From: Daejeonella sp.
Lineage (GTDB): Bacteria; Bacteroidota; Bacteroidia; Sphingobacteriales; Sphingobacteriaceae
Assembly (NCBI RefSeq): GCF_030684675.1
Contig: NZ_JAUXXZ010000073.1
Span: forward strand, 1-54,218
DNA length: 54,218 nt
Direction: 5' to 3'
Below the pieces are notes generated by a model. It did no database searches. It was not told the DNA's origin and saw nothing but the letters and a program-made list of their open reading frames with translations. The position numbers and the translations under genes were made by a program. This document shows positions 38,007-53,978 of the stretch, one piece after another. Every line of letters begins with the position of its first letter. Positions within the stretch are counted from its first letter, which is position 1.

Positions 38007-38447
38007 TTATAATCTGAATGCCTGTCTTGCCAGCAATCTCCAGCTTCCGCCTTCTTTTCTCCACACCATGAGATTACCAATTCTGATATCAGTTGGAACA
38101 CCGGCATTAGTAGCTTTGGCTATAAAAACATGACGTACAATTGCATTTTTTCCGGAAACAGTGATTATCTGATCCGCTGGAGTAATAGAAGAGAAATTAA
38201 ATGCGCCGTTAAACTGGTCATCGATAAATTCAGCCTTATTCTGTACTTTACCCCCCGAATGTCCATAGGATAATCCTTCAGAAACAATACCATCCAGGAG
38301 ACTCTTCTCAGGATCTACAATACCTTTATGTAAAGTTTCTACAGCTGCAGCTACAGCCTTTTCATCCTTCGATTGGGCATTAGCCACAAAGGCTGTTAAC
38401 ATAAAAAGCACAAACAGGTATTTCATATTTTTCATAATTGAATTCAT
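38007..38447 (-). CDS. Secreted NTF2-like (DUF4440-type) protein
   Basis: A 146-residue protein with a signal peptide (cleavage near V-A-N-A-Q, about residue 25) and an NTF2-like cone fold: an N-terminal helix (A-V-A-A-A-V-E-T-L-H-K-G), a G-L-S-Y-G-H-S-G-G segment and a C-terminal W-R-K-E-G-G-S-W-R-L-L-A-R-Q. Such proteins bind or transform small ligands, and some are isomerases. It is the last gene of the minus-strand exported run and is followed by a terminator. Its role in that run is unknown. Confidence 0.85.
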   Translation of the reverse strand: MNSIMKNMKYLFVLFMLTAFVANAQSKDEKAVAAAVETLHKGIVDPEKSLLDGIVSEGLSYGHSGGKVQNKAEFIDDQFNGAFNFSSITPADQIITVSGKNAIVRHVFIAKATNAGVPTDIRIGNLMVWRKEGGSWRLLARQAFRL

Positions 38448-38542
38448 TTTACTACCAGCTAATTAAGAACCTTTGCAGATTTTCTGTTTATTATTAAAAA
38501 TCAAAAGGGCAATTATAGTTTGAAATCAAACCCTCGTATTAT

Positions 38543-39853
38543 TTACTTTTTATCAACAATTTCTTCACCATCCTCTGCAGGAGGTCTGCTTCTCCACCAG
38601 CTGGCAAGAGCCGAACCAGTGACATTCATCAGTGGTCCAAAAATCGCAGGAGCTAAGCCTACTGTTGCAATTTTACCCATTTGAAGGGCAAGGCCTGATG
38701 CCAAACCACCATTTTGCATACCAACCTCAAAAGCAACCGTACGACGATCCTTTTCAGGCATTCCTGCAGCCCATGAAACCCCGTAACCAAGAGAGTATCC
38801 GGCTAAATTATGCAGAAGACTTGTTATGATCAGTAAAAGACCAACCTGTAGTAAACTATCACGACCTGCTGCGGTGATAATAGCAATGATTATAGCAATC
38901 CCAACCATTGAGACCATAGAAAGTGCGCTACCCATCCACTTATCGTCTCCTTTTCTTGTTTTACGAAGAACAATAGCAACTACCATTGGTAAGATATAGA
39001 ACCAGAATAAAGATTTACCCATTGCAGTAAGGAATCCTTCAAAACCAGAGCCACTTGACTTCATGTAAACAAGGTTTGTTAATACAACAACTACAAAGTA
39101 TCCGATCAACTGATAAATTTTTGATTTCTGACTTGCTTCGTTCTTTGAGAACAGGTTAAACATAAATCCGGCAACAATTGGCATAATGATCATATTCAAA
39201 ATATCCAGCATCATGTGCCAGAAATCAACCTGAATATACTGACCTCCCAACCACTGCATCAGCAATGGTGTTACAAATGGAGAGATAATTGTTGAAATCG
39301 CTCCGATTGTTACTGCTAGCGGAAGATTTGCATGCGCAAGATATGACATTACATTAGAAGCCAGACCACTTGGAACTGTACCAATCAAAATGATACCTGC
39401 AGCAATTTCAGGTGGAAAATCAAAAATATGAGCAATTCCAAAAGCAACTAATGGCATAATGATATAATGTGCTCCAACCCCAATAACTACACCTTTTGGC
39501 ATCTTAATAACGCCTGTAAAATCTTCAAAACTCATTTGAGATCCCATACCAAACATGATTACCTGCAATAGAGGAACAATCATCAACTTAAGCTGAAAAT
39601 CACCGATTGAAGTAAAATACTGTGGATAGAACATAGAAGCAGTTACAGCTGCAAAAATCCAGATCGTGTATGAAAATGCTTTAAAGGTTTTAGTACCTCT
39701 GACACCAATGGCCAAAGCGATAAAAAAGAGCATAAGTGCAGGACCGGTAGAAGCTAAATTGCCCTGGAAATACATAACCAATGCAGCGATCAGGCTTAAA
39801 CCAGCTATGCCCATTGCCAAAGAATAAATGTTAGACTGTTTCAAAGTTTTCAA
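38543..39853 (-). CDS. Bile acid:sodium symporter (BASS) family transporter
   Basis: A 436-residue inner-membrane protein with about ten hydrophobic helices. The family core is visible: Q-V-I-M-F-G-M-G-S-Q-M-S-F-E-D-F near 108-123 and G-T-V-P-S-G-L-A-S-N-V-M-S-Y-L-A near 167-182, the crossed-helix sodium and substrate site. Members take up bile acids, pyruvate, pantoate or other organic anions with sodium. It lies 40 bases after the exported RraA-type gene, so uptake of a small acid formed in the periplasm is a reasonable guess. The N-terminus adds extra helices compared with the smallest members. Confidence 0.92.
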   Translation of the reverse strand: MKTLKQSNIYSLAMGIAGLSLIAALVMYFQGNLASTGPALMLFFIALAIGVRGTKTFKAFSYTIWIFAAVTASMFYPQYFTSIGDFQLKLMIVPLLQVIMFGMGSQMSFEDFTGVIKMPKGVVIGVGAHYIIMPLVAFGIAHIFDFPPEIAAGIILIGTVPSGLASNVMSYLAHANLPLAVTIGAISTIISPFVTPLLMQWLGGQYIQVDFWHMMLDILNMIIMPIVAGFMFNLFSKNEASQKSKIYQLIGYFVVVVLTNLVYMKSSGSGFEGFLTAMGKSLFWFYILPMVVAIVLRKTRKGDDKWMGSALSMVSMVGIAIIIAIITAAGRDSLLQVGLLLIITSLLHNLAGYSLGYGVSWAAGMPEKDRRTVAFEVGMQNGGLASGLALQMGKIATVGLAPAIFGPLMNVTGSALASWWRSRPPAEDGEEIVDKK

Positions 39854-39893
39854 AATTAAGTTAAATAATAGGGATCAGTGTAATTTATTTTAA

Positions 39894-40817
39894 TTACCAG
39901 GTTCTCTTGCTCATGATTACATCAAGCTCTGCTTTAGTCATTTTTCCTTCTTCCGGATGTCTTTCCATCCATTTCAGGAAATCCAGTTTCATTTCTTCAG
40001 TCCAGGCATTATCCAACTGACCACCTGTATACTTTCCCGATTTTATAACTTCAAAAGCATATTTATCTCTTCTAACTACAAATTCAGCAGTCGATACCAC
40101 TTGCTCCGCTAAATGTGCCGGAACAAACAAAACTCCAATTTTAGCAGCAATTACTAAATCACCAGGCATTACAATTGCTCCACCAATACGAATAGGTGTA
40201 TTTAAGCCCATTAACAGCATCTCCTCCATAAAACTAGGATGAAAGTCCCTCACAAAGGCATTGAATCCCTTGATCTCTTCCAATCCTGGCACATCTCTGG
40301 CTGCACCGTTGAGTATTACTCCATTACCTGAATTTGCAAAAATTGATGTTCCAAGAGTACTTCCAATAAGTGTACCTCCATTGATTTTTCCAAAAGCATC
40401 AGCAACATAAATATCTCCCTTTTTTAATACTGCAATCGGCCAGGTATTTGTATTACCAACACGCCCCTGTTTTACACCTCTTTCTTTAATGTTTTTTTCC
40501 AGGTCGGGGCGATTTGGCATATACATAGCAGTTACTGCCCTTCCGGTCATAATTTCATCGTTCAGGGTTTTCCATCCATGTTCAAACTGATTGAGATAAC
40601 CAGATACTTTTAATACCTGCCAGGCATCGTCAAGACCAATTTTCTTTGCTCTTTCCAAAAGATTATCTGCAATTTTTGGACGGCCGTCAGGAAAACGTTC
40701 GCCTTTCCATTCGGAAGTTAAAAATGTAAGTTCCTCTTTTGGAATTGTTTGTGCAGATAACCAGGCTTGAGAAGAAACACAAGCAAATAGAAATGATAAC
40801 AATAATTTAACTCTCAT
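39894..40817 (-). CDS. Exported RraA/HMG-aldolase family protein
   Basis: A 307-residue protein with a clear Sec signal peptide (cleavage near L-S-A-Q, about residue 23), followed by an RraA-like domain. The family active-site region is present: D-A-F-G-K-I-N-G-G-T-L-I-G-S and G-A-A-R-D, where Arg-Asp bind oxyanion and metal in 4-hydroxy-4-methyl-2-oxoglutarate aldolases. Most RraA proteins are cytoplasmic, so the signal peptide is unusual. A C-terminal extension of about 50 helical residues ends the protein. Aldolase or decarboxylase action on a 2-keto acid is inferred from the conserved residues. Confidence 0.88.
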   Translation of the reverse strand: MRVKLLLSFLFACVSSQAWLSAQTIPKEELTFLTSEWKGERFPDGRPKIADNLLERAKKIGLDDAWQVLKVSGYLNQFEHGWKTLNDEIMTGRAVTAMYMPNRPDLEKNIKERGVKQGRVGNTNTWPIAVLKKGDIYVADAFGKINGGTLIGSTLGTSIFANSGNGVILNGAARDVPGLEEIKGFNAFVRDFHPSFMEEMLLMGLNTPIRIGGAIVMPGDLVIAAKIGVLFVPAHLAEQVVSTAEFVVRRDKYAFEVIKSGKYTGGQLDNAWTEEMKLDFLKWMERHPEEGKMTKAELDVIMSKRTW

Positions 40818-40905
40818 GATTTTAATTTGATATAAATAAACAAAAATTATTTAAATAATAATCAGATCAGCACTTTTCTTTGATTTGGAAAGAAATTAGC
40901 TCCAA

Positions 40906-42387
40906 TCATCTTTTCTTTCTTACACTTTTGGCTTTTTTTGATGCAGGTATGGTGACCTTCCAGATACTTCCTACTTTGGCATCATATTCAATGATATATA
41001 ATGAATTGCCAAGCAAAACAGCATCTGTTGGATTATTGAATGAATCGACAATCCGGGTTGTTTTTACAAAATAATTATCACTTCCCTTATCATAAGACAT
41101 GTCAAGATGAAGCAAATCTCTGCCCTGATCTGTGAATGGTTTCATCAGACTCGATTTTGCTCCAAGCGTGTTTCTGAGCACGAAGCCATCACCCCTAAAT
41201 TCATTAGAAAGTACTCCTTTGGTGTCAAAAACAAGACCTAATGGAGAACTGTGAGCAGTAAACGTACTGATACTTACTCCGGTATTATCCCCGTCGAGTA
41301 TTTTACCTGAATGCCCCCTGTATTCATTGGCATCCGGCCCCATGTTTTGAACTCCCGGACTAAATTTTACTCCTTCCGGGATTTTTGGAAAATCCGGATC
41401 ATTTCGAAAATACTTCATCAGCATACCATGTGATGTAGCCGGCAGAAACGGGTCTTTTTTCGGATCAGGCATAAAATCAGCATATTGTTGCGGATTTTCA
41501 ATACCTCCCATAATCCATGGAAATCCATAATGCCGCCCTTGTCTTACCCAAAACATATCTTCCGCATGATCATAGTCTGAAGAGTTAACAACCGCAAATA
41601 AATTGCCATCAGGATCAAAAGCCATATCATAGGCATTACGAATTCCTTCAGCATACAAATAAGCCTCTGCTTTTAATTTATTTATGTCATTTGGTAAGAG
41701 TAGATTCTCTGCTTTGACAGGGATTCGAAAAATTTTGGTGGTTAGAGCATTGTCACGTGCATTGGGATAAACACCTTTGTCATCCTGAATTTCACCATGT
41801 CCGGTTCTGGAACCCGAAGTAATAAAAATAAATTGTTCATCAGGGCTTAGAACTAGTGCGTTCCAACCATGATCCCATGTTGTTGCATTCAATCCATATA
41901 CTTCAGTATTGAAAACTACAGTCATTTTTGGAATACTGTTGGGTACAACTGAAAGGCGTACCAGTCTTCCTCTTGTGCCTCTATTACTATTTTCGGTAGT
42001 ATTACCGCATAAGAATAGTTCAGAACCTGCAAAAACAGCCCCCTGCAATTTGTTTATTCCGTGATCCTTTACTGTAAGAATTTGTTCTGAAATGACAGAA
42101 CCATTCTTATTGCTGATATGAAAAACACCACCTTCAAAAGTCGTATAGTAAAAATCACCTGAAACAGGATGAAGCAATAAACGTACGGCATTGGGCTGTA
42201 TATCGGCAAACTTCTCGATTATAATATCCGATCTTAAAGGGACAGGAGTTGACTGGAGTATCGGACTTAATCTTGAGGCAGAAGTCTTTTTCTCGTTTGC
42301 TTTAGAATCATTCTGAGCATTGGAAACAAGAGGAGCTATCAAAAAACTAAGAAGCCCAATTACATATATGCCTTGCTTGATTTGCAT
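40906..42387 (-). CDS. PQQ-dependent sugar dehydrogenase-like protein
   Basis: A 493-residue exported protein (signal peptide to about residue 24, S-N-A-Q) with a six-blade beta-propeller of the soluble glucose/sorbosone dehydrogenase type. Recognisable parts are W-D-H-G-W-N-A-L-V-L-S-P-D, G-I-R-N-A-Y-D-M-A-F-D-P-D-G and H-Y-G-F-P-W. Such enzymes oxidise aldoses to lactones and pass electrons to an acceptor. The separate cytochrome c gene lies 5 bases upstream in the same operon and is the likely acceptor. The C-terminus is basic. PQQ dependence is inferred from the family; no PQQ-synthesis genes are in the window. Confidence 0.87.
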   Translation of the reverse strand: MQIKQGIYVIGLLSFLIAPLVSNAQNDSKANEKKTSASRLSPILQSTPVPLRSDIIIEKFADIQPNAVRLLLHPVSGDFYYTTFEGGVFHISNKNGSVISEQILTVKDHGINKLQGAVFAGSELFLCGNTTENSNRGTRGRLVRLSVVPNSIPKMTVVFNTEVYGLNATTWDHGWNALVLSPDEQFIFITSGSRTGHGEIQDDKGVYPNARDNALTTKIFRIPVKAENLLLPNDINKLKAEAYLYAEGIRNAYDMAFDPDGNLFAVVNSSDYDHAEDMFWVRQGRHYGFPWIMGGIENPQQYADFMPDPKKDPFLPATSHGMLMKYFRNDPDFPKIPEGVKFSPGVQNMGPDANEYRGHSGKILDGDNTGVSISTFTAHSSPLGLVFDTKGVLSNEFRGDGFVLRNTLGAKSSLMKPFTDQGRDLLHLDMSYDKGSDNYFVKTTRIVDSFNNPTDAVLLGNSLYIIEYDAKVGSIWKVTIPASKKAKSVRKKR

Positions 42388-42392
42388 TTTTA

Positions 42393-42857
42393 TTATTCTG
42401 TTTTGCCTAATTCCCTGAGAAAGACAATTAATTGCCAGCGCTGCTCTTCAGTTAAAGCTTCTTTAAAAGGAGGCATATTACCTTTTCCGTTGGTTAATTT
42501 CCAGAATAATGTCCCATCCTTTTGCTTAATCACTTTCTGATCATGAAAGTTTGCAGGTCTGATGCCCATTGATCCACCCGCCGGGCCATCTCCATAACCT
42601 GTATCTCCATGACATGAAAAACAGTACATATTGTATAGCTCTTCTCCCTTTGAAATGGATTCCTGGGATATTGTTAATGGATTTTTAAGAGAATCGGCTG
42701 ATGCCGGGGCTAACCATGCTACCTGCTTTATTGTATCCTGCAAAAACTTTGAATCAGCTTTTTTATATGTTAAAGACTGATAATTAATTGAAGAAGATAG
42801 TATTATAACACCAACAGCACAGAATAATAAAAGAGTATAAAAATTATATTTTTTCAT
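42393..42857 (-). CDS. Cytochrome c, partner of the adjacent sugar dehydrogenase
   Basis: About 154 residues from ATG 42857 (M-K-K-Y-N), with an N-terminal signal/anchor helix and a single class I haem c site, C-F-S-C-H near residues 79-83. The axial methionine is in G-K-G-N-M-P-P-F. It ends 5 bases before the dehydrogenase gene. Its sequence is closely similar to the N-terminal domain of the fused dehydrogenase at 48734-50278 (shared P-A-N-F-H, Q-K-D-G-x-L-F-W-K-L-T, R-W-Q-L-I). That makes an electron-transfer partnership very likely. Confidence 0.9.
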   Translation of the reverse strand: MKKYNFYTLLLFCAVGVIILSSSINYQSLTYKKADSKFLQDTIKQVAWLAPASADSLKNPLTISQESISKGEELYNMYCFSCHGDTGYGDGPAGGSMGIRPANFHDQKVIKQKDGTLFWKLTNGKGNMPPFKEALTEEQRWQLIVFLRELGKTE

Positions 42858-42992
42858 AGAGTTAAAATTTATTATCCAACAAGCATTTAGCAACAATATT
42901 ACAGCCAATACAAATTCCTAAAAATTGAAATTGGCTGTAATAATTTTGAAACAAATAATTGCAGGATTGCTCCTACTAATTACCTTGAATGA

Positions 42993-43460
42993 TTAAAGAT
43001 AAGCGATTGCATCCATTTCCACCAATGAGTCGCCAGGTACACCGCCTTTAGCGACTGCAAGAGTTGAACGTACCGGAGGCTTACTTCCAAAACGGCCCTT
43101 GTAAACTTCATTCATACCTTTGTAATCAGCAATATCATTCAGATATACCGTTACTTTCAATACCTTTTCCATTGAAGAACCAGCTTTGATTAACTCCTTT
43201 TCAAGTTCTTTAAGAACAATCTCGGTATGTGCCTTGATTTCGAAAGGCGCAGTATGGGCACCTTTTCCTGCGATATAAACTAAACCATTATGAATAACAT
43301 GTCCGGAAAACATAGGAATATTTTGGACGGATGTTACATTGCCAACTACTTTTTCAGGTGATGATTCAATTCCTTTAGCATTAGCCACTACACCTAATCC
43401 GGTTACTCCTACTACTGAAGCAAATAATTTCTTTAATACTGATCTTCTTTCTGTTTTCAT
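42993..43460 (-). CDS. Exported RidA family protein
   Basis: A 155-residue protein: a 28-residue leader with a twin-arginine motif (E-R-R-S-V-L-K-K-L-F) and A-N-A-K near the cleavage point, then a complete RidA (YjgF/UK114) domain. The catalytic arginine is in P-P-V-R-S-T-L-A-V, followed by the family signature through V-E-M-D-A-I-A. RidA proteins hydrolyse reactive enamine/imine products of PLP enzymes to keto acids and ammonia. They are normally cytoplasmic, so Tat export is notable. The SMP-30 gene lies 22 bases upstream, and the exported PLP enzyme is in the same run. Confidence 0.9.
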   Translation of the reverse strand: MKTERRSVLKKLFASVVGVTGLGVVANAKGIESSPEKVVGNVTSVQNIPMFSGHVIHNGLVYIAGKGAHTAPFEIKAHTEIVLKELEKELIKAGSSMEKVLKVTVYLNDIADYKGMNEVYKGRFGSKPPVRSTLAVAKGGVPGDSLVEMDAIAYL

Positions 43461-43482
43461 CTTTATTTATTTGAATTGATAA

Positions 43483-44412
43483 TTATTTCTTTTTTGACAT
43501 TAGCCATTCGCGACCCGGTTTATCAACCCTGAAGCTTTCAACATTGCCCTTATCCTGCAAAGTAACATACGCAGTACGTCCGTCTTTACCACCAAATGCT
43601 ATATTACTAGGTAGTTTTCCCAGCAGAGTAATTTCGGTCAATAACTTTCCGGAAGGCGATAATTTTGCAATAGTGCCCTTTCCATGCCGGGTTACGTATA
43701 AATTCCCATCGATATCGCAGCGCATCCCATCCATACCGAAATCAGGAAATTCGTGAAATAGTCGCTTATTGCTTACTTCACCCTTTGCGGAAAGATCATA
43801 GACCCATACTTTGCGCTGTACTGATTCATTGACATATAATAACTTATTATCTGGGCTCACTTCAATACCATTTGCAGTTCCCATGCTATCCAGTTTTGTA
43901 GTTTTTCCATTGGTATCAATCCGCCAGATTCGGCCTGTACTGGCTCCCCAGTTCGGATCACTTGCATAAAGTCTGTCTTTATTGTCAATGGCAATATCGT
44001 TCGGCTGACTCATAGTAGCATTATGTGCAAACACTGTAATATCCTTAGTTAACATATTAACTTTCAGTATATTGTGTTTTGTATAATCTGCAATAAGCAT
44101 ATTACCTTTACTGTCAAAGCGAATTCCGTTACCTATACTACCCTCAGGCAAGTCAACAAAGAGGCTGGCAGATCCATCAGGATTAACTTGTCCGATAGTG
44201 CCTTGCTTAGCGAAATTCACCACATATAAAATACCTGCTTTATCCACAGCAGGACCTTCAATCCCTCTGGTAAAACCATTTAAAGCTGTTAAAGCTGAAG
44301 ATTTAAACAAAGGGGTTTTAGCATCCTGTGCATTAGTAAACAACACAGCACCGACTAACAGAAAAGTAAGGCTCAATGGTTTCATTGCTGAAGTATTTTC
44401 AATCTTATTCAT
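43483..44412 (-). CDS. SMP-30/gluconolactonase-like protein
   Basis: A 309-residue protein with a signal peptide (cleavage near T-N-A-Q, about residue 29) and a six-blade propeller of the SMP-30/LRE family. Expected metal-site segments are R-G-I-E-G-P-A-V-D (Glu), Q-P-N-D-I-A-I-D (Asn) and A-N-G-I-E-V-S-P-D. The last ligand region reads Y-V-N-E-S. Family members hydrolyse sugar lactones. In this run it would act on lactones made by the sugar dehydrogenases. Strictosidine-synthase-like relatives have other roles, so the substrate is uncertain. Confidence 0.87.
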   Translation of the reverse strand: MNKIENTSAMKPLSLTFLLVGAVLFTNAQDAKTPLFKSSALTALNGFTRGIEGPAVDKAGILYVVNFAKQGTIGQVNPDGSASLFVDLPEGSIGNGIRFDSKGNMLIADYTKHNILKVNMLTKDITVFAHNATMSQPNDIAIDNKDRLYASDPNWGASTGRIWRIDTNGKTTKLDSMGTANGIEVSPDNKLLYVNESVQRKVWVYDLSAKGEVSNKRLFHEFPDFGMDGMRCDIDGNLYVTRHGKGTIAKLSPSGKLLTEITLLGKLPSNIAFGGKDGRTAYVTLQDKGNVESFRVDKPGREWLMSKKK

Positions 44413-44571
44413 AAATTTAAATTAACATTGGATTAATAATATGAGTAAAATTCATAGGCTTTCCCCTATGAAACGATTAAATTAATAATGCAATTTAAAC
44501 TTATCTTAACAGGAGTACAATAACACAGGAAAATGTTACAGTGTGCAATAGTTCTTTTGGCTTACAGGAAT

Positions 44572-44603
44572 AGGTTCTGAGAAAGTAGAAATTCCCAGAA
44601 CCT
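44572..44603. terminator. Possible hairpin after the cytochrome c lipoprotein gene
   Basis: AGGTTCTGAGA and TCCCAGAACCT form an 11-bp stem with one wobble. It lies 12 bases after the stop at 44615 but lacks a clear U-run on the minus strand, so it may stabilise or attenuate rather than terminate. Confidence 0.4.
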
Positions 44604-44614
44604 TTATAAATTTA

Positions 44615-45154
44615 CTATTTTACGCTCAGAATATAGTGAACCATTGCTTCAGCATCTTCATCAGATAATGCTGGGTGCGGTGACATAGGAATGGCTCCCC
44701 AAACGCCACTTCCTCCAGCTTTAATCTTTTTAACAAGGTAATCTATGTTAGTCTTAGTATCTGAATACTTATTGGCGACATCTTTATAGCTTGGTCCCAA
44801 TAGCTTTTCATTAACCTTGTGGCAGGCAAAACAATCTGATTTTGAAATCAGAGTCTCTCCTTTTTTAGTATCCACAGCTTGAGCAACCACAACTGGTTTA
44901 ACAGGTTCTGCAGACTTAACTTCTTTTACAGCAGGTGTTTCCTTTGCTTTTACCTCAGTAACTTTACTTTCAGCAGTTTGAACAGCAGTTACGGGAACTG
45001 CAGGAGCCACATTCGTAGTATCAATCGATGGGGAAGCCACAGTGGCTGTATCCATTTCTACTGAGGCACTTGTATCGGCATCACTTGATTTTTCAGAAGA
45101 ACTACTGCAGGCAATAAAAAGGGCACAAACACCCAAAACTAAAATTCTTTTCAT
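44615..45154 (-). CDS. Cytochrome c lipoprotein with long Ala/Val/Thr/Lys linker
   Basis: A 179-residue protein with a lipoprotein signal ending F-I-A-C (Cys16), then a low-complexity linker (about 17-95, rich in S, T, V, A, K, E, P) and a C-terminal cytochrome c domain of the c551/c552 type. Haem site C-F-A-C-H is near 107-111 and the axial Met is in I-P-M-S-P-H near 154. The linker would let the haem domain reach through the periplasm from the membrane. It probably accepts electrons from the dehydrogenases of the run and feeds the respiratory chain. Confidence 0.9.
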   Translation of the reverse strand: MKRILVLGVCALFIACSSSSEKSSDADTSASVEMDTATVASPSIDTTNVAPAVPVTAVQTAESKVTEVKAKETPAVKEVKSAEPVKPVVVAQAVDTKKGETLISKSDCFACHKVNEKLLGPSYKDVANKYSDTKTNIDYLVKKIKAGGSGVWGAIPMSPHPALSDEDAEAMVHYILSVK

Positions 45155-45295
45155 TTCTTTGGTACTCTTAATTCTTTAGTATACGACATTGTATGACACA
45201 ATTCTATTTAAAAAATCCCGGATTTAAAATAAAAACTCAAAATCGTGACACAGGCACTGAATATGGGTATTAAAAGCATTATCTGTTATTTAAAA

Positions 45296-45536
45296 TAACG
45301 TGAGTTCGATATGTTATTATATATAATATTAAAGTTTAAGATGCTTTTCTTCAGTGCTATTAGGGTTTTAATTCTTTGGAAACCTACTGTTGTGCATTTT
45401 TTTTCAGAAGTCCCGCTTTCCGCTCATACTTCACAGGCCTTAATCACAGGCCGGTATACGCTACAATTGGGTTTAAACACATCAGACAGTGAATTTAAAC
45501 CTGATTTACCCTTCAATTGTATCGAGCTCACGTTAA
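45296..45536. mobile_element. MITE-like element with 16-bp terminal inverted repeats
   Basis: TAACGTGAGTTCGATA (45296-45311) and the reverse complement of 45520-45535, TAACGTGAGCTCGATA, match at 15 of 16 bases and bound a 241-base non-coding block. The ends resemble those of the repeats at 773-961 and 37755-37941, but the interior differs: it contains CCCGCTTTCCGCTC and GGCCGGTATACGCTAC. It occupies most of the 423-base gap between the haloperoxidase-family gene and the cytochrome gene. The remaining 140 bases on the cytochrome side show nothing clear. Confidence 0.7.
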
Positions 45537-45577
45537 GATAAGAATAGGCCTGCTAAATTTAGAGATTTATAGTCAGA

Positions 45578-46879
45578 TCAATTAAGTTTACTAAAAACAA
45601 GCTCCCCTATTTTCTCCCCTTCAACCATTCCTGCCTCCATTCCTTCACGGTAATGAATTCCACCATAAAGACGGCTTAAAGCTGCTTCATTTGCTGCTTC
45701 TTTAACATTTTCATATTTTCTGTCAGGCCAACCCCATGCTCTTTCTGTGTTATCAACAAATGGGGTATTATCACCAAATATTCTGGTTAAAACCATAGCT
45801 GATGCACTAGAAATGATTGAGTGTCCACTGGTATATTCCGGGAATGGTGGAGTTTGAAGATAAGGCTTCCAGGCATTATCCATATAATTGTTAATATAAG
45901 TTTCAGGTCTCAATAAATCGTAGGTAAATTTTGTATTCCAGCAGGCGATAAAAGCATCCATTACGGCAATAGATACTCCTGCATAAGCAAACACAGTTTT
46001 ATCAAAGTCGGCTTTCTGAGTACTGCAAACAATTCCGGTAATACCCATCCAATGCCCGCCTGGTGTCATGGCCTTAGTTGCAAACATAACGTGTCCTGAA
46101 ACATTTACCTTGAAGCCGTTGCAATCCCAAAAATCAGCGATTGCTTTTTGCTCATCACTTAAATTCTTACCAGTTTCATACACTTCATTTGCCAGTTTAT
46201 AAAAATCACTATTCTTATCTTTATTAAATTTAGAATGTGGCTTAGGCAAAAACTGACTTGCTGAATCAATTAGAACAGGCCGGATTTTCATCCAACTAGG
46301 CTCAATAGCGGGCATATATGCCGGCGGGGTTGGGACCCATCTGCCTTCTTCATTTGTAACCGTGTATTTAACTGCTGAACGTGTCTGCTTATAATTATCT
46401 TTCTTCGCCCAATCCGAAACTGCCTTACTTACCGAAAGAGCATATTCCTGAGAATTCAGTATCATTTCTTCAGGCATTCCGCTATCCTTTGCAAGCTGAA
46501 TATGATTGTCTATTATTTTTTGAGTGGAGTCTTTCGAAAATGTCATCTCCTTTCCAACATACATATAAGCTAATATTGCTGAAAACTCCTTATTCACAGA
46601 TTTATTTGCTGCCGAAACTTTGAGTCCTTCGAGTTTGCCACTAAGTGGCTTATAGTCCTTTGACTGGCTTGCAATAACCTCATATCCTGCAATACTACTG
46701 TAAGCATATATTCTGCTTGCAACCGGAGGAGAAAAGATATCGTGGGTAATAACCTGGGTTAATAATCCTACTGTTTTGGAGTATTGCTCGGGGTTTGAAA
46801 AAACGGTTTCATAATCACCTTTCTTAGCGCAACTACTAAACAAAAAGCCAATAATGACAGCAAATAATATTTTTTTCAT
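45578..46879 (-). CDS. Vanadium-dependent haloperoxidase-family lipoprotein
   Basis: A 433-residue lipoprotein (signal ending F-S-S-C, Cys17) of the PAP2/vanadium chloroperoxidase superfamily. The complete vanadate/phosphate site is present near the C-terminus: K-F-T-Y-D-L-L-R-P (K-x6-R-P), Y-T-S-G-H-S and S-R-L-Y-G-G-I-H (S-R-x5-H). These residues bind vanadate in haloperoxidases and phosphate in acid phosphatases, so the reaction could be halide oxidation or phosphomonoester hydrolysis. This family often accompanies SusC/SusD and VCBS/UnbV genes in Sphingobacteria, as here. Confidence 0.91.
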   Translation of the reverse strand: MKKILFAVIIGFLFSSCAKKGDYETVFSNPEQYSKTVGLLTQVITHDIFSPPVASRIYAYSSIAGYEVIASQSKDYKPLSGKLEGLKVSAANKSVNKEFSAILAYMYVGKEMTFSKDSTQKIIDNHIQLAKDSGMPEEMILNSQEYALSVSKAVSDWAKKDNYKQTRSAVKYTVTNEEGRWVPTPPAYMPAIEPSWMKIRPVLIDSASQFLPKPHSKFNKDKNSDFYKLANEVYETGKNLSDEQKAIADFWDCNGFKVNVSGHVMFATKAMTPGGHWMGITGIVCSTQKADFDKTVFAYAGVSIAVMDAFIACWNTKFTYDLLRPETYINNYMDNAWKPYLQTPPFPEYTSGHSIISSASAMVLTRIFGDNTPFVDNTERAWGWPDRKYENVKEAANEAALSRLYGGIHYREGMEAGMVEGEKIGELVFSKLN

Positions 46880-47008
46880 ATCTAATTGAATTTTAATTAT
46901 TTAAGCTCTTAGAATTCTGATTTATTATTAGAAAATTTATCTGTGAGCTTATTTTACTTATAATTTTTAGTAAAATTATAAAATCTAACTACATTAAACA
47001 ATATAATA

Positions 47009-48670
47009 TCAGGTTGCCAAAGGAGGACCCTTTGGAACCAGCACTTTCTTACGAACCGGCTTTTCTAATGATTTGCTCGCGGTGAATTTTGCTGTTCGGT
47101 ATTCGCCCATATGTATGTCTCCTGTAAGCGAGTCTCCAATAAGTGTACCTGAGAAGTAAAAAGTGATCTGATCTCCGGGTAGTCTTAGCACACTGCTCAA
47201 TTTGATCTGATTACCCTCAATTGTTCCACTTATATCCCGAATATCAAAGTCACCTTTATGAGTGCCATTAATCCAGTTTCCATGCTGCTGAATCGTAAAG
47301 TTATGCTTAACTATACTATTAAAATATCTTACATTAACATTCCATTTACCACTTAGATTTGCTGTGGGAGCAGTCATTGCCTCTGATTTAGGGCTGCGTT
47401 TTCTGGAAAGTATCTCAAATATTCTGTTTGCGACGATTTGGTCCTCTCCTTCCTTCATATGACTTGAAACAATATCAATGGTAGTACTTCCATCACTTTC
47501 TTCACGAGAACCGATAGCAACTCTTGGTTTGGTACTACTGATTTCTTCTGCAACTTCATATCCGGTTATATTGAGTTTAGCGGGATCCCAGCTAATCCAT
47601 AAAGTCGGGTGCTTATTAGAAAGTTCAGTTGGTTCAGTAACATTTGTTTTTACTCCCTGTATAGTCAGTGCCTTTTTGGCGATAAGATCAAGCCTGCTAA
47701 GCCAACTCTTGTATTCAGCATCATGATCGCGTTTTATCCAGGTTTCAACTGCAGCCATCATTCCAATCATCTCTTCTCGCCCAACTTTATTATCCCGACC
47801 AGGACCATGATGAGGAGAACTTGCCTGCCATGCCGACATTAATATCTCTTTGTTTCCGAGCAGTAAACCAGCACATTGAGGGCCCCGCATAGCTTTTCCA
47901 CCACTATAGGCAACTACATCAGCACCACGTTTAAGATGTACGGAGGGAATTGTCAGATTTTCGGCTGCTGCGTCAATTAAAACCGGCACATTCTTAGGTT
48001 TTGCAATGCCTGCAATCACTTCAAGAGAAAAAGGTTGTCCTGTAAAAGAACCATTAACCGCATTCACATAGATCATCGCTGTTCTTGGATTAATTGCCCT
48101 TTCGAGTTCTTCTGGTGTTGCTACGTGAATTATGGTTACTCCGATATTACGAACGGCATGATCATAGGTATTACGTGAATACAAGGGGATAATTACTTCG
48201 TTCTTCTCAAATCCAGTCAGATTTGGGATTCTGATAAGCTTTTCAGGGCTACCACCAGTAACACAAGCAGCAGTTACATGCTTCATACCTGCGGCACATC
48301 CGGCCGAAACCATACCCCATTCAGACTTAGTAAGATCTGCAAGCCTTTGGCCTATTCCTTCTGCCAATTCATCGTATTGAACAAAATTTTGAGAAGCAGC
48401 TTCCATTGCTTCCCTAACGGGAGGAAGTTCCAGCGATCCACCAATAATTGTATATGCACCACGGCAGTTAATAATGGGTTCAACACCGATAGAGCGAAAA
48501 ATATTCGTTTCAGCCATAAATGAAGATTCCGTAGTAATACTTCCTGTTTCAGTTAGTGTAGCAGAGCTGAATCCTGAACCCGGACTTGCTGCTAAAACTG
48601 ATTCCCTGGTAATTGCTCCTGCAGCAAGTGGAAGTAAAGCTAATCCCTTGATTAAATTTCTACGTTTCAT
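47009..48670 (-). CDS. Exported SelA/DgaE-like PLP-dependent enzyme with C-terminal beta domain
   Basis: A 553-residue protein. The leader has twin arginines (M-K-R-R-N-L-I-K-G) and a hydrophobic stretch to about 28. Residues 55-425 form a fold-type I PLP domain of the SelA/DgaE group: Asp233 in L-I-D-A-A-A-E and the Schiff-base Lys259 in S-G-G-K-A-M-R-G-P-Q. SelA itself acts on tRNA in the cytoplasm; exported relatives are better candidates for amino-acid or amino-sugar-acid ammonia lyases such as D-glucosaminate lyase. Residues about 440-535 form an all-beta domain opening L-S-G-K-W-N-V. It lies 63 bases after the dehydrogenase fusion gene. The activity is inferred. Confidence 0.87.
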   Translation of the reverse strand: MKRRNLIKGLALLPLAAGAITRESVLAASPGSGFSSATLTETGSITTESSFMAETNIFRSIGVEPIINCRGAYTIIGGSLELPPVREAMEAASQNFVQYDELAEGIGQRLADLTKSEWGMVSAGCAAGMKHVTAACVTGGSPEKLIRIPNLTGFEKNEVIIPLYSRNTYDHAVRNIGVTIIHVATPEELERAINPRTAMIYVNAVNGSFTGQPFSLEVIAGIAKPKNVPVLIDAAAENLTIPSVHLKRGADVVAYSGGKAMRGPQCAGLLLGNKEILMSAWQASSPHHGPGRDNKVGREEMIGMMAAVETWIKRDHDAEYKSWLSRLDLIAKKALTIQGVKTNVTEPTELSNKHPTLWISWDPAKLNITGYEVAEEISSTKPRVAIGSREESDGSTTIDIVSSHMKEGEDQIVANRIFEILSRKRSPKSEAMTAPTANLSGKWNVNVRYFNSIVKHNFTIQQHGNWINGTHKGDFDIRDISGTIEGNQIKLSSVLRLPGDQITFYFSGTLIGDSLTGDIHMGEYRTAKFTASKSLEKPVRKKVLVPKGPPLAT

Positions 48671-48733
48671 ATCATTATTTTGAATTGTTAAGGTAAATAA
48701 GATTCCGGCTATTTTCTTTAAAAAAAAATAAAC

Positions 48734-50278
48734 TCAGATCTTGCTCAGTGGCACTAATCTGACTAAAATACCGGTATCTTCAGTAAGGACATACAGGAAT
48801 TGATCAGGGCCATATTTTACATCTCTGATCCTTCCAAGATTATGCAGCATGGCCTCATCATGCACAGATTTGTCATCTTTCATCACAAGCCGATAAAGCT
48901 TCTTAGTGGCTAGTCCGCCTATAAAAATATTGCCATCCCATTTTGGGTAATGAGTTCCATAAACGAAATCAAGATCTGATGGTGCAATAGCATAATGATG
49001 AATCGGTGATTCCGTTCCTTCACGATACGGACTTTCAGAAATTATTGAACCATTATATTCAAGACTGAATGTTGCTAAAGGCCATCCGTAATTTGCTCCC
49101 CGTTTTAAAATATTCAATTCGTCCCCTGCTAGTTCGCCAAATTCCACAAAAAATATTCTGCCTGTTTTAGGATCAAGGCGAAAGCCCTGATGCATGCGAT
49201 GACCGTAAGAATAGATTTCAGGCAAAGCTCCCGGAGTATTTACAAATGGATTATCTTTTGGAATACTGCCATCATCATGTAGCCTCATGGTCTTTCCATC
49301 AGGAGCAGAAAGGCTTTGAGAGTTCATCCTATCTGCAGTATGTATTCCTACAGTAAAATACAGAAATCCTTTATCGTCAAATCCGATCTTACTACCAAAC
49401 CAGTCACCATTACGTTTAAATGGTCCTGCTTTGTAAATCATCTTTTCCTCCACAAGCTTATCACCAATCAATTTGCCTCTCATCAATGCAGTATAACCTG
49501 TACCGGGTGTTGTGGGCTCTATAAAATATGAAAAGTAAATTACCCTGTTCTTTTCGAAGTTGGGATGCAACTTAACGTCGCGCAAACTTGTTGGAACATT
49601 TCCTCCTATCGGATTTTCCTGAACTTTCCCGCCTTTTACTTTCAATAATTTACCACTACGCTCTGCTATCAGAACTGAATTATCTGGCAGAAAAACAATG
49701 CTCCAAGGTCTTACAAGGTCTTTAACTACCGTATCAACCATAAATAGCTGTTCCTCTGAACTGTAAACATTGCTTACTTTAAGGGGTAATGGAAAATAGC
49801 GGGTTGACAAATTCTTATCAAACCGATAGTTTTTAAGTGGCAAAACCGGCTTTGAAACAGTAGCATTCAAATCCTGTTTAGCGAATTGGCGTATGTATGC
49901 AATAAGTTGCCACCTCTTTTCTTCATTAAAAGCAACACCATAGGCCGGCATATTCCCCTTACCATGAGTTAGCTTCCAAAACAGGGCACCATCCTTTTGA
50001 TCAGTTACCTGTTTACTATGGAAATTTGCAGGCGGTATTTTATACCTACCCGGTTGTCCATCGCCAAGTCCGGTAGTCCCGTGACAGGAAACACATAGCA
50101 TAGTATACAATTTTTCACCCTCTCTTATCACCTGAGGAGTAAATGGGAATGGGCTTTTAATCGTATCTGCTGAATCCGGGGCTTTCCAGGGTTCCTGAAC
50201 AGGAAAATTGGACTTGAAAGAAATAAAAAATAAAGTGCCTATTCCTCCTAATAAAATAATAAGCGCCTTTTTGTTCAT
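48734..50278 (-). CDS. Cytochrome c / PQQ-dependent sugar dehydrogenase fusion
   Basis: About 514 residues from ATG 50278 (an ATG at 50293 is an alternative). An N-terminal hydrophobic signal/anchor is followed by a cytochrome c domain (about 45-140) with haem site C-V-S-C-H and axial Met in G-K-G-N-M-P-A-Y. The rest (about 165-510) is a soluble-type glucose dehydrogenase propeller with L-V-R-P-W-S-I-V-F-L-P-D, Y-S-Y-G-H-R-M-H-Q-G and G-A-N-Y-G-W-P-L. Dehydrogenase and electron acceptor are thus one chain. The same pair occurs as two separate genes at 40906-42857. Confidence 0.92.
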   Translation of the reverse strand: MNKKALIILLGGIGTLFFISFKSNFPVQEPWKAPDSADTIKSPFPFTPQVIREGEKLYTMLCVSCHGTTGLGDGQPGRYKIPPANFHSKQVTDQKDGALFWKLTHGKGNMPAYGVAFNEEKRWQLIAYIRQFAKQDLNATVSKPVLPLKNYRFDKNLSTRYFPLPLKVSNVYSSEEQLFMVDTVVKDLVRPWSIVFLPDNSVLIAERSGKLLKVKGGKVQENPIGGNVPTSLRDVKLHPNFEKNRVIYFSYFIEPTTPGTGYTALMRGKLIGDKLVEEKMIYKAGPFKRNGDWFGSKIGFDDKGFLYFTVGIHTADRMNSQSLSAPDGKTMRLHDDGSIPKDNPFVNTPGALPEIYSYGHRMHQGFRLDPKTGRIFFVEFGELAGDELNILKRGANYGWPLATFSLEYNGSIISESPYREGTESPIHHYAIAPSDLDFVYGTHYPKWDGNIFIGGLATKKLYRLVMKDDKSVHDEAMLHNLGRIRDVKYGPDQFLYVLTEDTGILVRLVPLSKI

Positions 50279-50382
50279 TGTTAAAATATTCATTTCAGTT
50301 TAAAGATTTTGATTCCGGAAGAAAAAGAGACAGAATATAAATAATATCTGAAATCGAAAATTCACACGGCTTTATAATTAAA

Positions 50383-53300
50383 TTAATTTTTCACTGTTTT
50401 AACAGGGGAATTATTTATCCCAAAAATGAATTGATTTCCAGAATTTTTTCCAGTAGAGAACATTTTCAGGCTTCTCACATTACCCCTGATATTAAGACCA
50501 CTTTTCCATTGCGGAATATAATTAAATTCACCCTTACCATTCCCTGAAAGCAGCGTACCGTTACTGGAAGTGAAATGTCCGAATTTTATTCTGGTCCATG
50601 AATTATTTCCGGCTAATATCAAATCCTTCTTACCATCCTTATCAACATCAGAAGATGCAATGGCATAAACCGGTGCATACTGCGCTTCAACAGGAAGTGG
50701 CTTTAAATTAAAGCCCTTACCGGTATTTTCTAAATAAACAGTTTCAAGAAGCTCTGCTTTCAGCATTTTGGCATCCTTTAACTGATCAGCAGTAAACAGA
50801 TCATTTATCGTTGCATTGGCATATTTATGATATTCCAGAAATTTATTTTTAAGACTTGGAAGCTGATCCATCAGATCATCCCTTGAAGCTGCTGGATAAG
50901 AAACACCACCTATATAATAGCAGAAAATAGGGTCTACAGAACCGTTCTCGTCGAAATCTTTATAATAAATGCTCATTGGTTCCTTCTCACTAGCCTTAAA
51001 CTGTGCATTCAGTCCCAAATTTCCAATGATAAGGTCTTTGTCACCGTCAGCATCCATGTCATCTGCATAAATTGTATTCCACCAGCCTGATGAACCAAAC
51101 TTGATAAATTCGGCAGATTTGTCTTTCAATTTACCTTTCTGATTCAGGAATATGCGGATAGGCATCCATTCACCAACTATGATCAGATCATTTACCTTAT
51201 CCTGATTTACGTCGATCCAAACGGCATCACTAACCATGCCTGCATATTTTATTTCAGGAGCAATGGCGGCAGTGCCATCCGTAAAATTCCCCTTGCCATC
51301 ATTGATCAGAATTTTACTTTCAGGGGTACTTGGATACATCCCTGGAGAAACACGGCTACCAACAAATAGATCCAAATCACCATCTCCATCTATATCTGAG
51401 GATCTTATTGTGCCTGTACTGCTTAGCATTTTTGGAAGACCGGAAGTCTTCTTTGTGAAATTCCCCTTGCCATCATTTATATAAATCCGATCCTGAAGCC
51501 AGGGACTATCAGGCCCGAATTCATAGCCACCACTTCCAACATACAGATCAAGATCACCGTCACTATCTATATCGAAAAATTCAGAAGCTGTATCTTCATA
51601 CTGAGCATCTGCATCCAGTGAACTACTGTTCTTTTTAATAAAATTACCTGCGCTGCTTTGTGTAAATAAAGCTCCTGCCTGGCCTGAAGCACCTCCTATA
51701 AACAGATCCTCTATCCCATCACCGTTAAAATCAGCTTTAGCCATAGTTGGGCCTGGTCTTGAAAGATAATTCGGGAGTAAGGTCTGAACAGTAAAATCAT
51801 TAAACTGATTTTCTGTATGTGTAAAATTAACTGAAGATGAATTCACTAAATATTTATCACCTGCTGGAATGGGATTAAACTTCAAATCCAGATTAGCATT
51901 TTTAACATCTAATGTAAGGGTCTGATTTACTTTTACATTGTTAATCTTCTGACTCTTGTCATTCGGCCAAACAATAAACAGCGAATCAACGACCTGATTT
52001 TCACCGAGTCCAAAATTTAATACCGGATCCACTGAAGACTGAAACCCTCTGACAGGAATTTGTTCCTGAAAGTACTTTACACCCTTAGCATATAGAATTA
52101 CCTTAGCACCAAAGCCCAATGAATTTTGTTTGTCACCCTTTAACTGGACTCTGAGAAAAGAATACTTATTCAGCAATTCCGAATTGTTTTTATAAACACT
52201 TGCCACTTCATTTGTATTACTTACAACAAGGTCCATATCCCCATCATTATCCAAATCTGCATAGACCGCACCTGCCGAAATGCCCTTTTGATCAAGGCCC
52301 CACTCTGTACTTTTCTTCTCAAAACGGTCATTACCAACATTTTGAAAAACATAATTAGATTGGACTATTGTCGGCATTTTCTCTATAAAATCCTTCGCAA
52401 CAACAGTATTTCCCTGTTGCCTTGAACGAATAGTTTCGTCCATTGTGAACTTAAGAAAGTCCATATCAGTATAATCCTTAACATATCCGTTGGTCACAAA
52501 TAGATCCTTCTTCCCGTCCTTGTCCAGATCAGAAAATAAAGCGGCCCAACTCCAGTCTGTATTGGATATTCCTGCAACCTGTCCGACCTCAGAAAATGTT
52601 CCATCTCCATTATTCTTCTGAAGCATGTTCCGGCTAAACTGGAAATAAAAGCCTCTGTCGAACAAAAATTGCATTTTATCGAAATTTTCAGCTCCTGAAT
52701 GCATTTTTTGAGTCTCATTACTTTCAGGAAGCATGTCGAGGGTTACCAAATCAGGTAAGCCATCATTGTTATAATCGGCGACATCCGATCCCATAGAGTA
52801 CATCGAAATCTGCGACATACTTTCTGTTAGTTTATCTGTAAAAGTTCCATTCCCATTATTAATAAACAAATAATCAGGTTCATTAAAATCGTTGGAAACA
52901 TAAATGTCCAGCCAGCTATCATTGTTAATATCAGAAACAGCAAGGCCTAAACCAAAAGTCAAAACATTGGATGTAATTCCGGCTTCAGCACTAATATCCT
53001 TGAATTTACCATTATCATTTCTATATAATTTATTCGCAAAATCTGGATTTTGTTCTTTTCTCAACTGCACATTTTCCTGAACACCGGTTGTATATTGTTG
53101 CAGAGAGTGATTAATCAGGAACATATCCAAATCACCATCCTTATCATAATCAAAAAATGAAGCCTGGGTTGAATAACCATGGTCTGCAAGACCATACTCT
53201 TCGGCTTTCTCTGTAAATGTCAGATCACCATTATTAATAAATAATAAGTTCTTCCTTCGTTCAGGATCAATATCTGCCGAACGGCTAATATAAATATCCA

Positions 53301-53673: not shown

Positions 53674-53978
53674 GTTAATGTGTTTTGTCAATCACAGATT
53701 TTTGAAATTGTTTCTGTTAACCAGTTCAGCTTTATTCTTTAAAATTAAAAGATTCTGGAATAAGGAAATAAGCTATTTTAAGAATGAATAAATGTAATAT
53801 TCAAAATTACTATGATTAACAGTGAAGCATTAAATATAAAAAATAAATTTAGCTCTGTAAAGAATATCTACAGCCAATCTATATTATTCAAAAAAATATT
53901 TGATTAAGGAAACTTTATAAAATCTTGGATAGAATCGTGATATAAAAACAAAAATAAAATCTTGGATATACTAACAAC

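Follow-up and report, generated by a model that had tools for sequence, protein, structure and literature searches.

We examined a 54,218-nucleotide stretch of Daejeonella sp. DNA (the window; it is contig C47, from an assembly totalling 4.25 Mb whose close relatives are recorded as Daejeonella, Pedobacter and Sphingobacteriaceae), in which a long minus-strand run of genes encodes a SelA/DgaE-like pyridoxal phosphate (PLP) enzyme, a RidA protein, two proteins of the GSDH family, cytochromes c, an SMP-30-family protein, an RraA-like protein and a BASS-family carrier. An initial annotation, made from the sequence alone, had read this run as a possible pathway for the oxidation of an amino sugar outside the cytoplasm.

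A conserved gene unit with export-type N-termini

Pfam and NCBIfam scans placed every gene named in that annotation on the minus strand, and added three that its list had omitted: a PAP2/vanadium-haloperoxidase-type (VHPO) lipoprotein, an FG-GAP/ASPIC-UnbV lipoprotein and a DUF4440 protein. With its flanking members, the unit occupies 38,007–53,691 (Table 1) and reads, in the direction of transcription, FG-GAP, cytGSDH2, SelA, VHPO, cytB, SMP-30, RidA, cytA, GSDH1, RraA, BASS and DUF4440. Gaps between genes are 5–129 bases, with the exception of 423 and 202 bases on either side of cytB, which make more than one transcript possible.

Table 1. Genes of the conserved unit in the window, in order of transcription.
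Feature	Position	Strand	Match or remark
FG-GAP/ASPIC-UnbV lipoprotein, 1102 aa	50383..53691	-	PF13517/PF07593; opens the conserved unit within the window
cytGSDH2, cytochrome c domain followed by a GSDH beta-propeller in one protein	48734..50293	-	PF13442 and PF07995 (8.7e-94)
SelA/DgaE-like PLP enzyme, twin-arginine signal, extra C-terminal beta-barrel	47009..48670	-	TIGR01437 (9.7e-44)
VHPO, PAP2/vanadium-haloperoxidase-type lipoprotein	45578..46879	-	PF01569 (4.2e-9)
cytB, lipoprotein cytochrome c	44615..45154	-	PF00034 (2.4e-12); lipobox
SMP-30/gluconolactonase-family protein, exported-type	43483..44412	-	PF08450 (2e-42)
RidA, twin-arginine signal	42993..43460	-	PF01042 (1.5e-19)
cytA, cytochrome c	42393..42908	-	PF13442 (1.9e-14); true start probably an internal ATG
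GSDH1, distant GSDH-family propeller	40906..42387	-	PF07995 (3.6e-6)
RraA-like protein, exported-type	39894..40817	-	PF03737 (8.6e-16)
BASS-family membrane carrier	38543..39853	-	PF01758 (4.6e-38)
DUF4440 protein, exported-type	38007..38447	-	PF14534 (1e-12); last gene of the conserved unit

Export signals, judged by eye and by regular expression rather than by a predictor, agree with the earlier statement that nearly all of the products carry them: SelA and RidA have twin-arginine N-termini, several proteins have a lipobox, and the remainder have Sec-like N-termini. Across the fetched loci, an arginine pair lies within the first 60 residues of all 86 distinct SelA-like and 29 of 31 RidA sequences, and TatC was found in the window genome. 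The catalytic proteins of the unit thus appear, from their N-termini and the presence of the Tat translocase, to be exported.

Gene order is kept in all eight same-genus contigs (L031–L038) to the limit of each contig, bar one gene, cytGSDH2, which is missing from L038. The FG-GAP gene is present in L031–L033 and L035–L038, L034 beginning after its place, and the DUF4440 gene in all six contigs that reach its position (in L033 and L034 the contig ends too soon). The BASS proteins of L031, L032 and L038 are more distant from that of the window (52–56% identity, versus 89% in L035–L037). Upstream of the unit in L031, L033, L036 and L038 lie two genes, one SusC-like, recognised by its match to a homologue in L116, and one for a candidate SusD-type lipoprotein. 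The window contig stops short of this place; at one end of another contig of this genome, 7.4 kb long, is a SusC-like gene that shares 91% identity with the L031 gene. This contig could be the neighbour of the window contig, although the match does not prove it.

The SelA-like enzyme and its RidA partner

Co-occurrence in relatives had been set beforehand as the test that could refute the pathway. We searched a sample of 395 Bacteroidota genomes with E-value limits of our own choosing (SelA-like, 1e-20, scored at no more than three places per genome; exported-type RidA, 1e-25; RraA, 1e-30). SelA-like genes were found in 8 genomes and exported-type RidA genes in 8, and the two sets are identical; with independent genomes such an overlap would arise by chance with a probability of 3.6e-15, an assumption that does not hold here, the eight representing five families. 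By coordinates, all 13 RidA copies in the sample lie less than 4 kb from a SelA-like gene. RraA was found in 24 genomes, comprising all 8 with SelA and 16 of the 387 without. SMP-30 of this type was present in 7 of 8 SelA-containing and 1 of 36 SelA-lacking genomes, and exported-type amidohydrolases in 8 of 8 and 2 of 36, the 36 being the 16 RraA-only genomes plus the first 20 listed negatives rather than a random draw; Fisher values for these comparisons ignore the kinship of the genomes. The distribution of the SelA-like gene is sparse and sporadic (14 of 20 same-genus and 21 of the 150 nearest genomes).

Neighbourhoods outside the genus were compared over 20 fetched stretches from 14 genomes, a set that omits some SelA places, including two of G083, using BLAST to references from these clusters and dropping hits below 60 bits. 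RidA was found in 13 stretches, a second Rid type in 8 and either in 15; RraA in 11, BASS in 10, SMP-30 in 9 and an amidohydrolase in 17; a GSDH protein with a C-terminal cytochrome in 11, GSDH1 in 2 and either in 12; SusC in 14, SusD in 13, DUF4440 in 2 and the FG-GAP gene in 1. None of the 20 gave a BLAST hit to VHPO, 2-keto-3-deoxygalactonate kinase (DGOK) or KDPG aldolase; VHPO is present in all eight same-genus contigs. In one stretch from another family (L085), SelA, BASS, SMP-30, RidA, amidohydrolase, GSDH1, cytA, SusD and SusC form a single run. The genes therefore recur together both in the genus and across families, as expected of one unit, and the pathway reading came through the test unrefuted.

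The window SelA scores 149.7 bits against the DgaE-family model TIGR01437, under its curated cut-off of 385.3. A true selenocysteine synthase was rejected, as the selA model gives it 20.4 bits and its N-terminus is of the export type. Aligned with DGL (7lc0), a member of the same sequence family, all 34 exported SelA-like proteins compared keep the PLP lysine and the aspartate that contacts the pyridine nitrogen (K259 and D233 in the window). The phosphate-site residues Arg301, Arg332 and Arg346 of DGL are kept in 1, 1 and 0 of the 34, and His162 and His163 in 1 each, in a loop that aligns with gaps. The missing arginines fit an unphosphorylated substrate and led us to reject glucosaminate-6-phosphate, the substrate of the DgaE equivalog. 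The missing proton-donor histidine fits a need for RidA: the H163A variant of DGL is described as remaining active and releasing an enamine intermediate (PMC9529869). We predict that the exported enzymes would naturally release such an enamine, for which RidA would be the remedy. RidA itself keeps Arg131 and Glu148 (window numbering) in all 31 sequences; we take these to be the active-site residues of the Arg105 and Glu120 type. In addition to the residues that they lack, the exported proteins differ from DGL in their twin-arginine signal, their RidA partner and, in some members, an extra C-terminal beta-barrel. Family, residues and context together lead us to propose the window SelA as a putative amino-sugar-acid ammonia-lyase.

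In an AlphaFold model of the long-form protein from the window, the extra barrel has eight strands (residues about 441–533) and belongs to the better-modelled part. Foldseek matches of the model repeat the result of the sequence searches, with Cap15 (8t7j) one of the two closest solved relatives by both sequence and fold. The SelA tree contains a long-form clade of 16 rows and a short-form clade of 31, with DGL and Cap15 as its sole outsiders, too few for it to separate a single origin of export from several.

Putative sugar oxidation, RraA and exchange with dehydratases

The initial annotation had counted two PQQ-type sugar dehydrogenases. Both are GSDH-family proteins; the notion that both are ordinary sugar dehydrogenases was rejected because cytGSDH2 lacks the catalytic histidine, which we take to be of the sGDH His144 type. 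Without it, cytGSDH2 may relay electrons or act as an altered enzyme. GSDH1 has a histidine (His173) one alignment column off the reference catalytic residue and an aligned Arg250–Asn251, and we propose it as a candidate aldose or amino-sugar dehydrogenase, though its AlphaFold model (pLDDT 50) is too weak for the active site to be read. The cytA gene lies 5 bases upstream, and its product is presumably the electron acceptor of GSDH1. The SMP-30 protein has E52, N181 and D228, each kept in 17 of 17 sequences, at the positions that we take to be the metal-binding Glu, Asn and Asp of the family. Another lactonase family stands beside SelA in two further clusters of the window genome (PF10282 in L055; a 6-phosphogluconolactonase-like protein in L109). 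In a different genome (G488, L132), an amidohydrolase gene without SelA adjoins a gene whose product is 34% like the lactonase-type protein of L109.

For the class II aldolases of the HMG/CHA type we assume a motif of Asp102 and Arg123–Asp124. Placed by alignment to 3noj, the Arg–Asp pair is R174–D175 in the window RraA; in 29 exported RraA proteins, the pair is kept in 26 and the Asp102-type aspartate in 15. The best NCBIfam match of the BASS protein is the ketopantoate/pantoate carrier PanS (NF047939, 3.5e-63, 214 bits, below the 400-bit cut-off), and we propose it as a candidate uptake carrier of a keto acid.

Exported RraA also occurs without SelA. Of the 16 RraA-only genomes, 12 were fetched (G104, G524, G260 and G510 were left out); an enolase-superfamily (MR_MLE) gene neighbours RraA in 11 of these 12 and BASS in 6, and neither SelA nor RidA was found around RraA in any of them. 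The same kind of neighbour occurs in 3 of 3 stretches of SelA-containing genomes in which RraA is remote from SelA. MR_MLE proteins were called by BLAST to one reference (>45 bits), and Pfam confirmed all nine tested (7 of the 11 RraA-only loci and 2 of the 3 remote loci); all 19 listed from both kinds of locus carry an arginine pair near the N-terminus. In the window genome, another RraA adjoins an arginine-pair-bearing protein of the D-mannonate dehydratase family UxuA together with MR_MLE-like proteins. Both families include sugar-acid dehydratases that produce 2-keto-3-deoxy acids; MR_MLE also includes racemases and cycloisomerases. Since exported RraA without SelA adjoins a dehydratase-type protein, SelA stands where other clusters have a plausible producer of 2-keto-3-deoxy acids. 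RidA would be superfluous to a dehydratase but is needed by an ammonia-lyase that releases an enamine, and in the sample this type of RidA was confined to genomes with SelA. Elsewhere in the Bacteroidota (L118–L131, L114), exported RraA forms a separate module with MR_MLE or UxuA-type proteins that carry a Tat signal, and BASS is often part of it.

The window genome holds 18 SelA-like genes (E 1e-20), 17 with an arginine pair at the N-terminus and one, on contig C59, that was not fetched, as well as 24 amidohydrolases (found at E 1e-60 with a query that itself exceeds the NF006689 cut-off). Besides the window, SelA/amidohydrolase contigs are C3, C4, C9, C40, C53, C59, C62 and C83, several of them with SusC/SusD and sigma/anti-sigma genes. 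Genes for DGOK, KDPG aldolase and a major facilitator superfamily (MFS) carrier stand beside SelA in G001 (L063), G003 (L101), G019 (L103) and C40 of the window genome (L105–L106). The kinase was assigned by PF05035 in L063 and by BLAST elsewhere (that of C40 is 58% like a PF05035-matching DGOK), the aldolase by PF01081 in L063 and L106, and the best NCBIfam match of the carrier is a D-galactonate transporter, below cut-off. C40 also encodes an MR_MLE-type protein whose scores with the models for galactonate and mannonate dehydratase fall below cut-off, and a sulfatase with an N-sulphoglucosamine-sulphohydrolase C-terminal domain; this sulfatase, the MR_MLE protein and BNR proteins lie beside the kinase and aldolase (L106:1478–5827), an arrangement that hints at a glycosaminoglycan-type substrate. 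The C4 cluster has a KDPG aldolase, a glycerate kinase and a 2-hydroxyacid dehydrogenase. Other carriers near SelA clusters are DctA and LctP, both above cut-off (LctP in L063; its L105 counterpart was assigned by BLAST), and, below cut-off, an ActP-like protein; acetate uptake by the last would fit deacetylation outside the cell.

Some further genes were noted in passing. VHPO and the FG-GAP/ASPIC protein are fixed in the genus form of the unit, and a related pair occurs together near another SelA cluster (L068). Within the window, an M19 membrane dipeptidase-family gene lies downstream of the unit (35838–36992), a family that also flanks the SelA cluster of C4, and a 940-residue protein with lactonase-like propeller and phosphoesterase-family matches is encoded at 25872–28694.

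A proposed exported pathway and its alternatives

We consider it reasonably probable that the genes of the run together serve the breakdown of a 2-amino-2-deoxy sugar, free or N-acylated, by exported enzymes in the periplasm. In this scheme, SusC and SusD would import the sugar, GSDH1 and its cytochrome c would oxidise the anomeric carbon to a lactone, and the SMP-30 protein would open the lactone to a 2-amino-aldonate. The Tat-exported SelA-like enzyme would then eliminate water together with ammonia, forming a 2-keto-3-deoxy sugar acid in its enamine state. Lacking the histidine with which DGL protonates its enamine, it would release this intermediate for hydrolysis by the co-exported RidA. 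RraA may act on the resulting keto-deoxy acid by aldol cleavage or by dehydration/decarboxylation, and BASS may import the product. The chemistry of the families, from aldose through lactone and acid to ammonia elimination with RidA, a 2-keto-3-deoxy acid and uptake, thus fits the pathway first suggested, with an amino sugar as its putative substrate.

Several observations count against this interpretation. On the oxidative side, cytGSDH2 has a tryptophan at the catalytic histidine position, in the window copy as in all seven orthologues (L031–L037), and a methionine in place of the asparagine that follows the arginine. GSDH1 is a weak match to its family (Table 1), and its profile finds no relative in the PDB. 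No PqqE over cut-off was detected in the window genome, nor in 14 control genomes, which leaves the search without a positive control; the cofactor PQQ, if used, may come from outside. The carboxylate-type Arg226 of DGL is kept in 14 of the 34 exported SelA-like proteins, and the window copy has Asn273 at this position, which makes it less likely that the binding mode of DGL carries over unchanged. The AlphaFold model of SelA is of low confidence (mean pLDDT 56.8), confident in the C-terminal barrel and scattered parts, and its active site is unreadable. RraA has S153 at the position of the aldolase Asp102 and so departs from the class II motif, and in what was fetched of G386, G342 and G422 it occurs only at a distance from SelA. 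The window genome has 18 SelA-like genes to 3 RidA genes of this type, and RidA of this type is missing from 7 of the 20 outside-genus SelA stretches, including the four from G083 and the two from G055, five of the 20 having neither Rid type; these absences slightly lowered our confidence. VHPO and the FG-GAP protein fit nowhere in the scheme. No deacetylase is encoded in the unit, so that its substrate would have to be an amino sugar without an acyl group, unless deacetylation falls to one of the 24 amidohydrolases encoded elsewhere.

The alternative that survives best is a variant of the proposed pathway and compatible with it: the intact 2-keto-3-deoxy acid would be imported by BASS or an MFS carrier, then phosphorylated and cleaved in the cytoplasm, leaving RraA with a dehydration/decarboxylation or a side task. 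The kinase, KDPG aldolase and MFS genes beside SelA in L063, L101, L103 and C40 are what it would lead one to expect, as is the missing motif aspartate of RraA, and an RraA-like protein of Flavobacterium, FlDet, is reported as a dehydratase/decarboxylase of 2-keto-3-deoxy-hexarate (KDGR; PMC8563752). Aldol cleavage by RraA outside the cell, as in the initial annotation, would be one possibility among others. Retention of the Arg–Asp pair in most exported RraA proteins, and the failure of BLAST to find such a kinase or a KDPG aldolase in the window unit or the 20 outside stretches, argue the other way; we regard import of the intact acid as a serious possibility that falls somewhat short of an even chance.

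Alternatively, the exported SelA-like and RidA proteins might degrade D-amino or beta-hydroxy-D-amino acids freed by exported amidohydrolases and dipeptidases, the keto acids being imported and the GSDH, SMP-30 and RraA proteins serving other substrates. Pairs of SelA and amidohydrolase genes would fit N-acyl-D-amino acids as well. In favour of this reading are amidohydrolases in 17 of the 20 outside stretches and 24 in the window genome (two tested proteins exceed the NF006689 cut-off), the M19 dipeptidases near SelA in C4 and at 35838–36992, and the lactate-, dicarboxylate- and acetate-type carriers near some SelA clusters. OngC, a glucosaminate deaminase of another fold, is also reported to accept D-Ser and D-Thr (PMC9537276). 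Such a role would not account for the RraA and BASS genes shared with the dehydratase-type clusters, for the DGOK, KDPG aldolase and galactonate-type carrier genes in SelA clusters, or for the two lactonase families and GSDH proteins found repeatedly beside SelA, and we judge it unlikely.

Cap15, the relative noted above, is described as an oxidative decarboxylase of glycyluridine that depends on O2 and phosphate (PMC6411801), a sign that other chemistry is possible in the family. The exported enzymes could accordingly be O2-using PLP enzymes that decarboxylate a beta-hydroxy-alpha-amino acid outside the cell; the three phosphate-site arginines kept by both DGL and Cap15 are missing from them, and an enamine/imine hydrolase partners SelA in all eight genomes of the phylum sample, making this very improbable. 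That unrelated exported enzymes merely share a transcription unit, as the lack of a clear place for VHPO, the FG-GAP protein and cytB might suggest, is barely credible given the gene order conserved in the genus and the recurrence in five families with matching SelA and RidA.

The system nearest to the proposed exported pathway is the Ong pathway of Pseudoalteromonas prydzensis, which converts N-acetylglucosaminate (GlcNAc1A) through glucosaminate to 2-keto-3-deoxygluconate and ammonia without phosphorylation (PMC9537276), and in which a RidA protein is essential for growth on GlcNAc1A, its role being left unexplained. The proposed pathway would share with it an unphosphorylated route, a PLP deaminase and RidA, and, through amidohydrolases encoded outside the window unit, possibly a deacetylase of that type. 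In the Ong pathway, however, the deacetylase OngB and the deaminase are predicted to be cytoplasmic whereas the window enzymes are of the exported type, OngC is of fold type III whereas the window enzyme belongs to the SelA/DgaE family, the acid comes from chitin cut by a lytic polysaccharide monooxygenase rather than, as proposed here, from a sugar dehydrogenase and a lactonase, and the cluster as reported there lists no RraA or BASS. Nor is there, among the proteins of the window unit, a kinase that would correspond to KdgK. The novelty first claimed for the route is thereby confined to its exported version, a cytoplasmic, unphosphorylated glucosaminate route with an essential RidA having already been published.

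Other published relatives are more partial. The window RraA shares its sequence family and Arg–Asp pair with the HMG/CHA aldolase/RraA proteins (PMC5065237, PMC8563752), and differs in its exported-type N-terminus and in the replacement of Asp102. A glucosaminate route predicted for Natrarchaeobius involves a glucose dehydrogenase, a RutC-family protein and a homologue of DgaE, all encoded in chitinase clusters (PMC12343721); it is archaeal, proposes a phosphorylated intermediate and is itself only a prediction. The terms periplasm, signal peptide, Bacteroidetes and glucosaminate were searched for in a Rid family survey (PMC4433059), and none occurs there. A literature search, beyond the reach of which lay most subscription papers, found nothing in print that deals with a RidA or DgaE of the exported kind or with this set of genes; nor, judged by title, did any paper that a broader search brought up.

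More tentatively, part of the Bacteroidota may run a general Tat-exported, unphosphorylated, Entner–Doudoroff-like catabolism, in which sugars would first undergo periplasmic oxidation to acids and these would then be converted, still outside the cytoplasm, to 2-keto-3-deoxy acids by two exchangeable kinds of exported enzyme that share an RraA/BASS pair or use other carboxylate carriers. Enolase-superfamily and UxuA-type dehydratases would serve plain sugar acids, and SelA-like ammonia-lyases with RidA would serve amino-sugar acids, a branch that the window genome, with its many SelA-like and amidohydrolase genes, would have diversified.

The proposed pathway would carry out known types of reaction at a new location and with a new pairing of partners. 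Enamine-releasing PLP enzymes and RidA have been described as chemistry of the cell interior, and here both appear to be Tat-exported together, with the loss of the proton-donor histidine giving a testable reason for their association. If the proposal is correct, amino-sugar nitrogen would be removed outside the cytoplasm, only carboxylic acids would be imported, and electrons would pass to periplasmic cytochromes. It would also give a function to a family of exported SelA-like proteins that has had no assigned role, and possibly a new route for chitin-type or glycosaminoglycan-type sugars.

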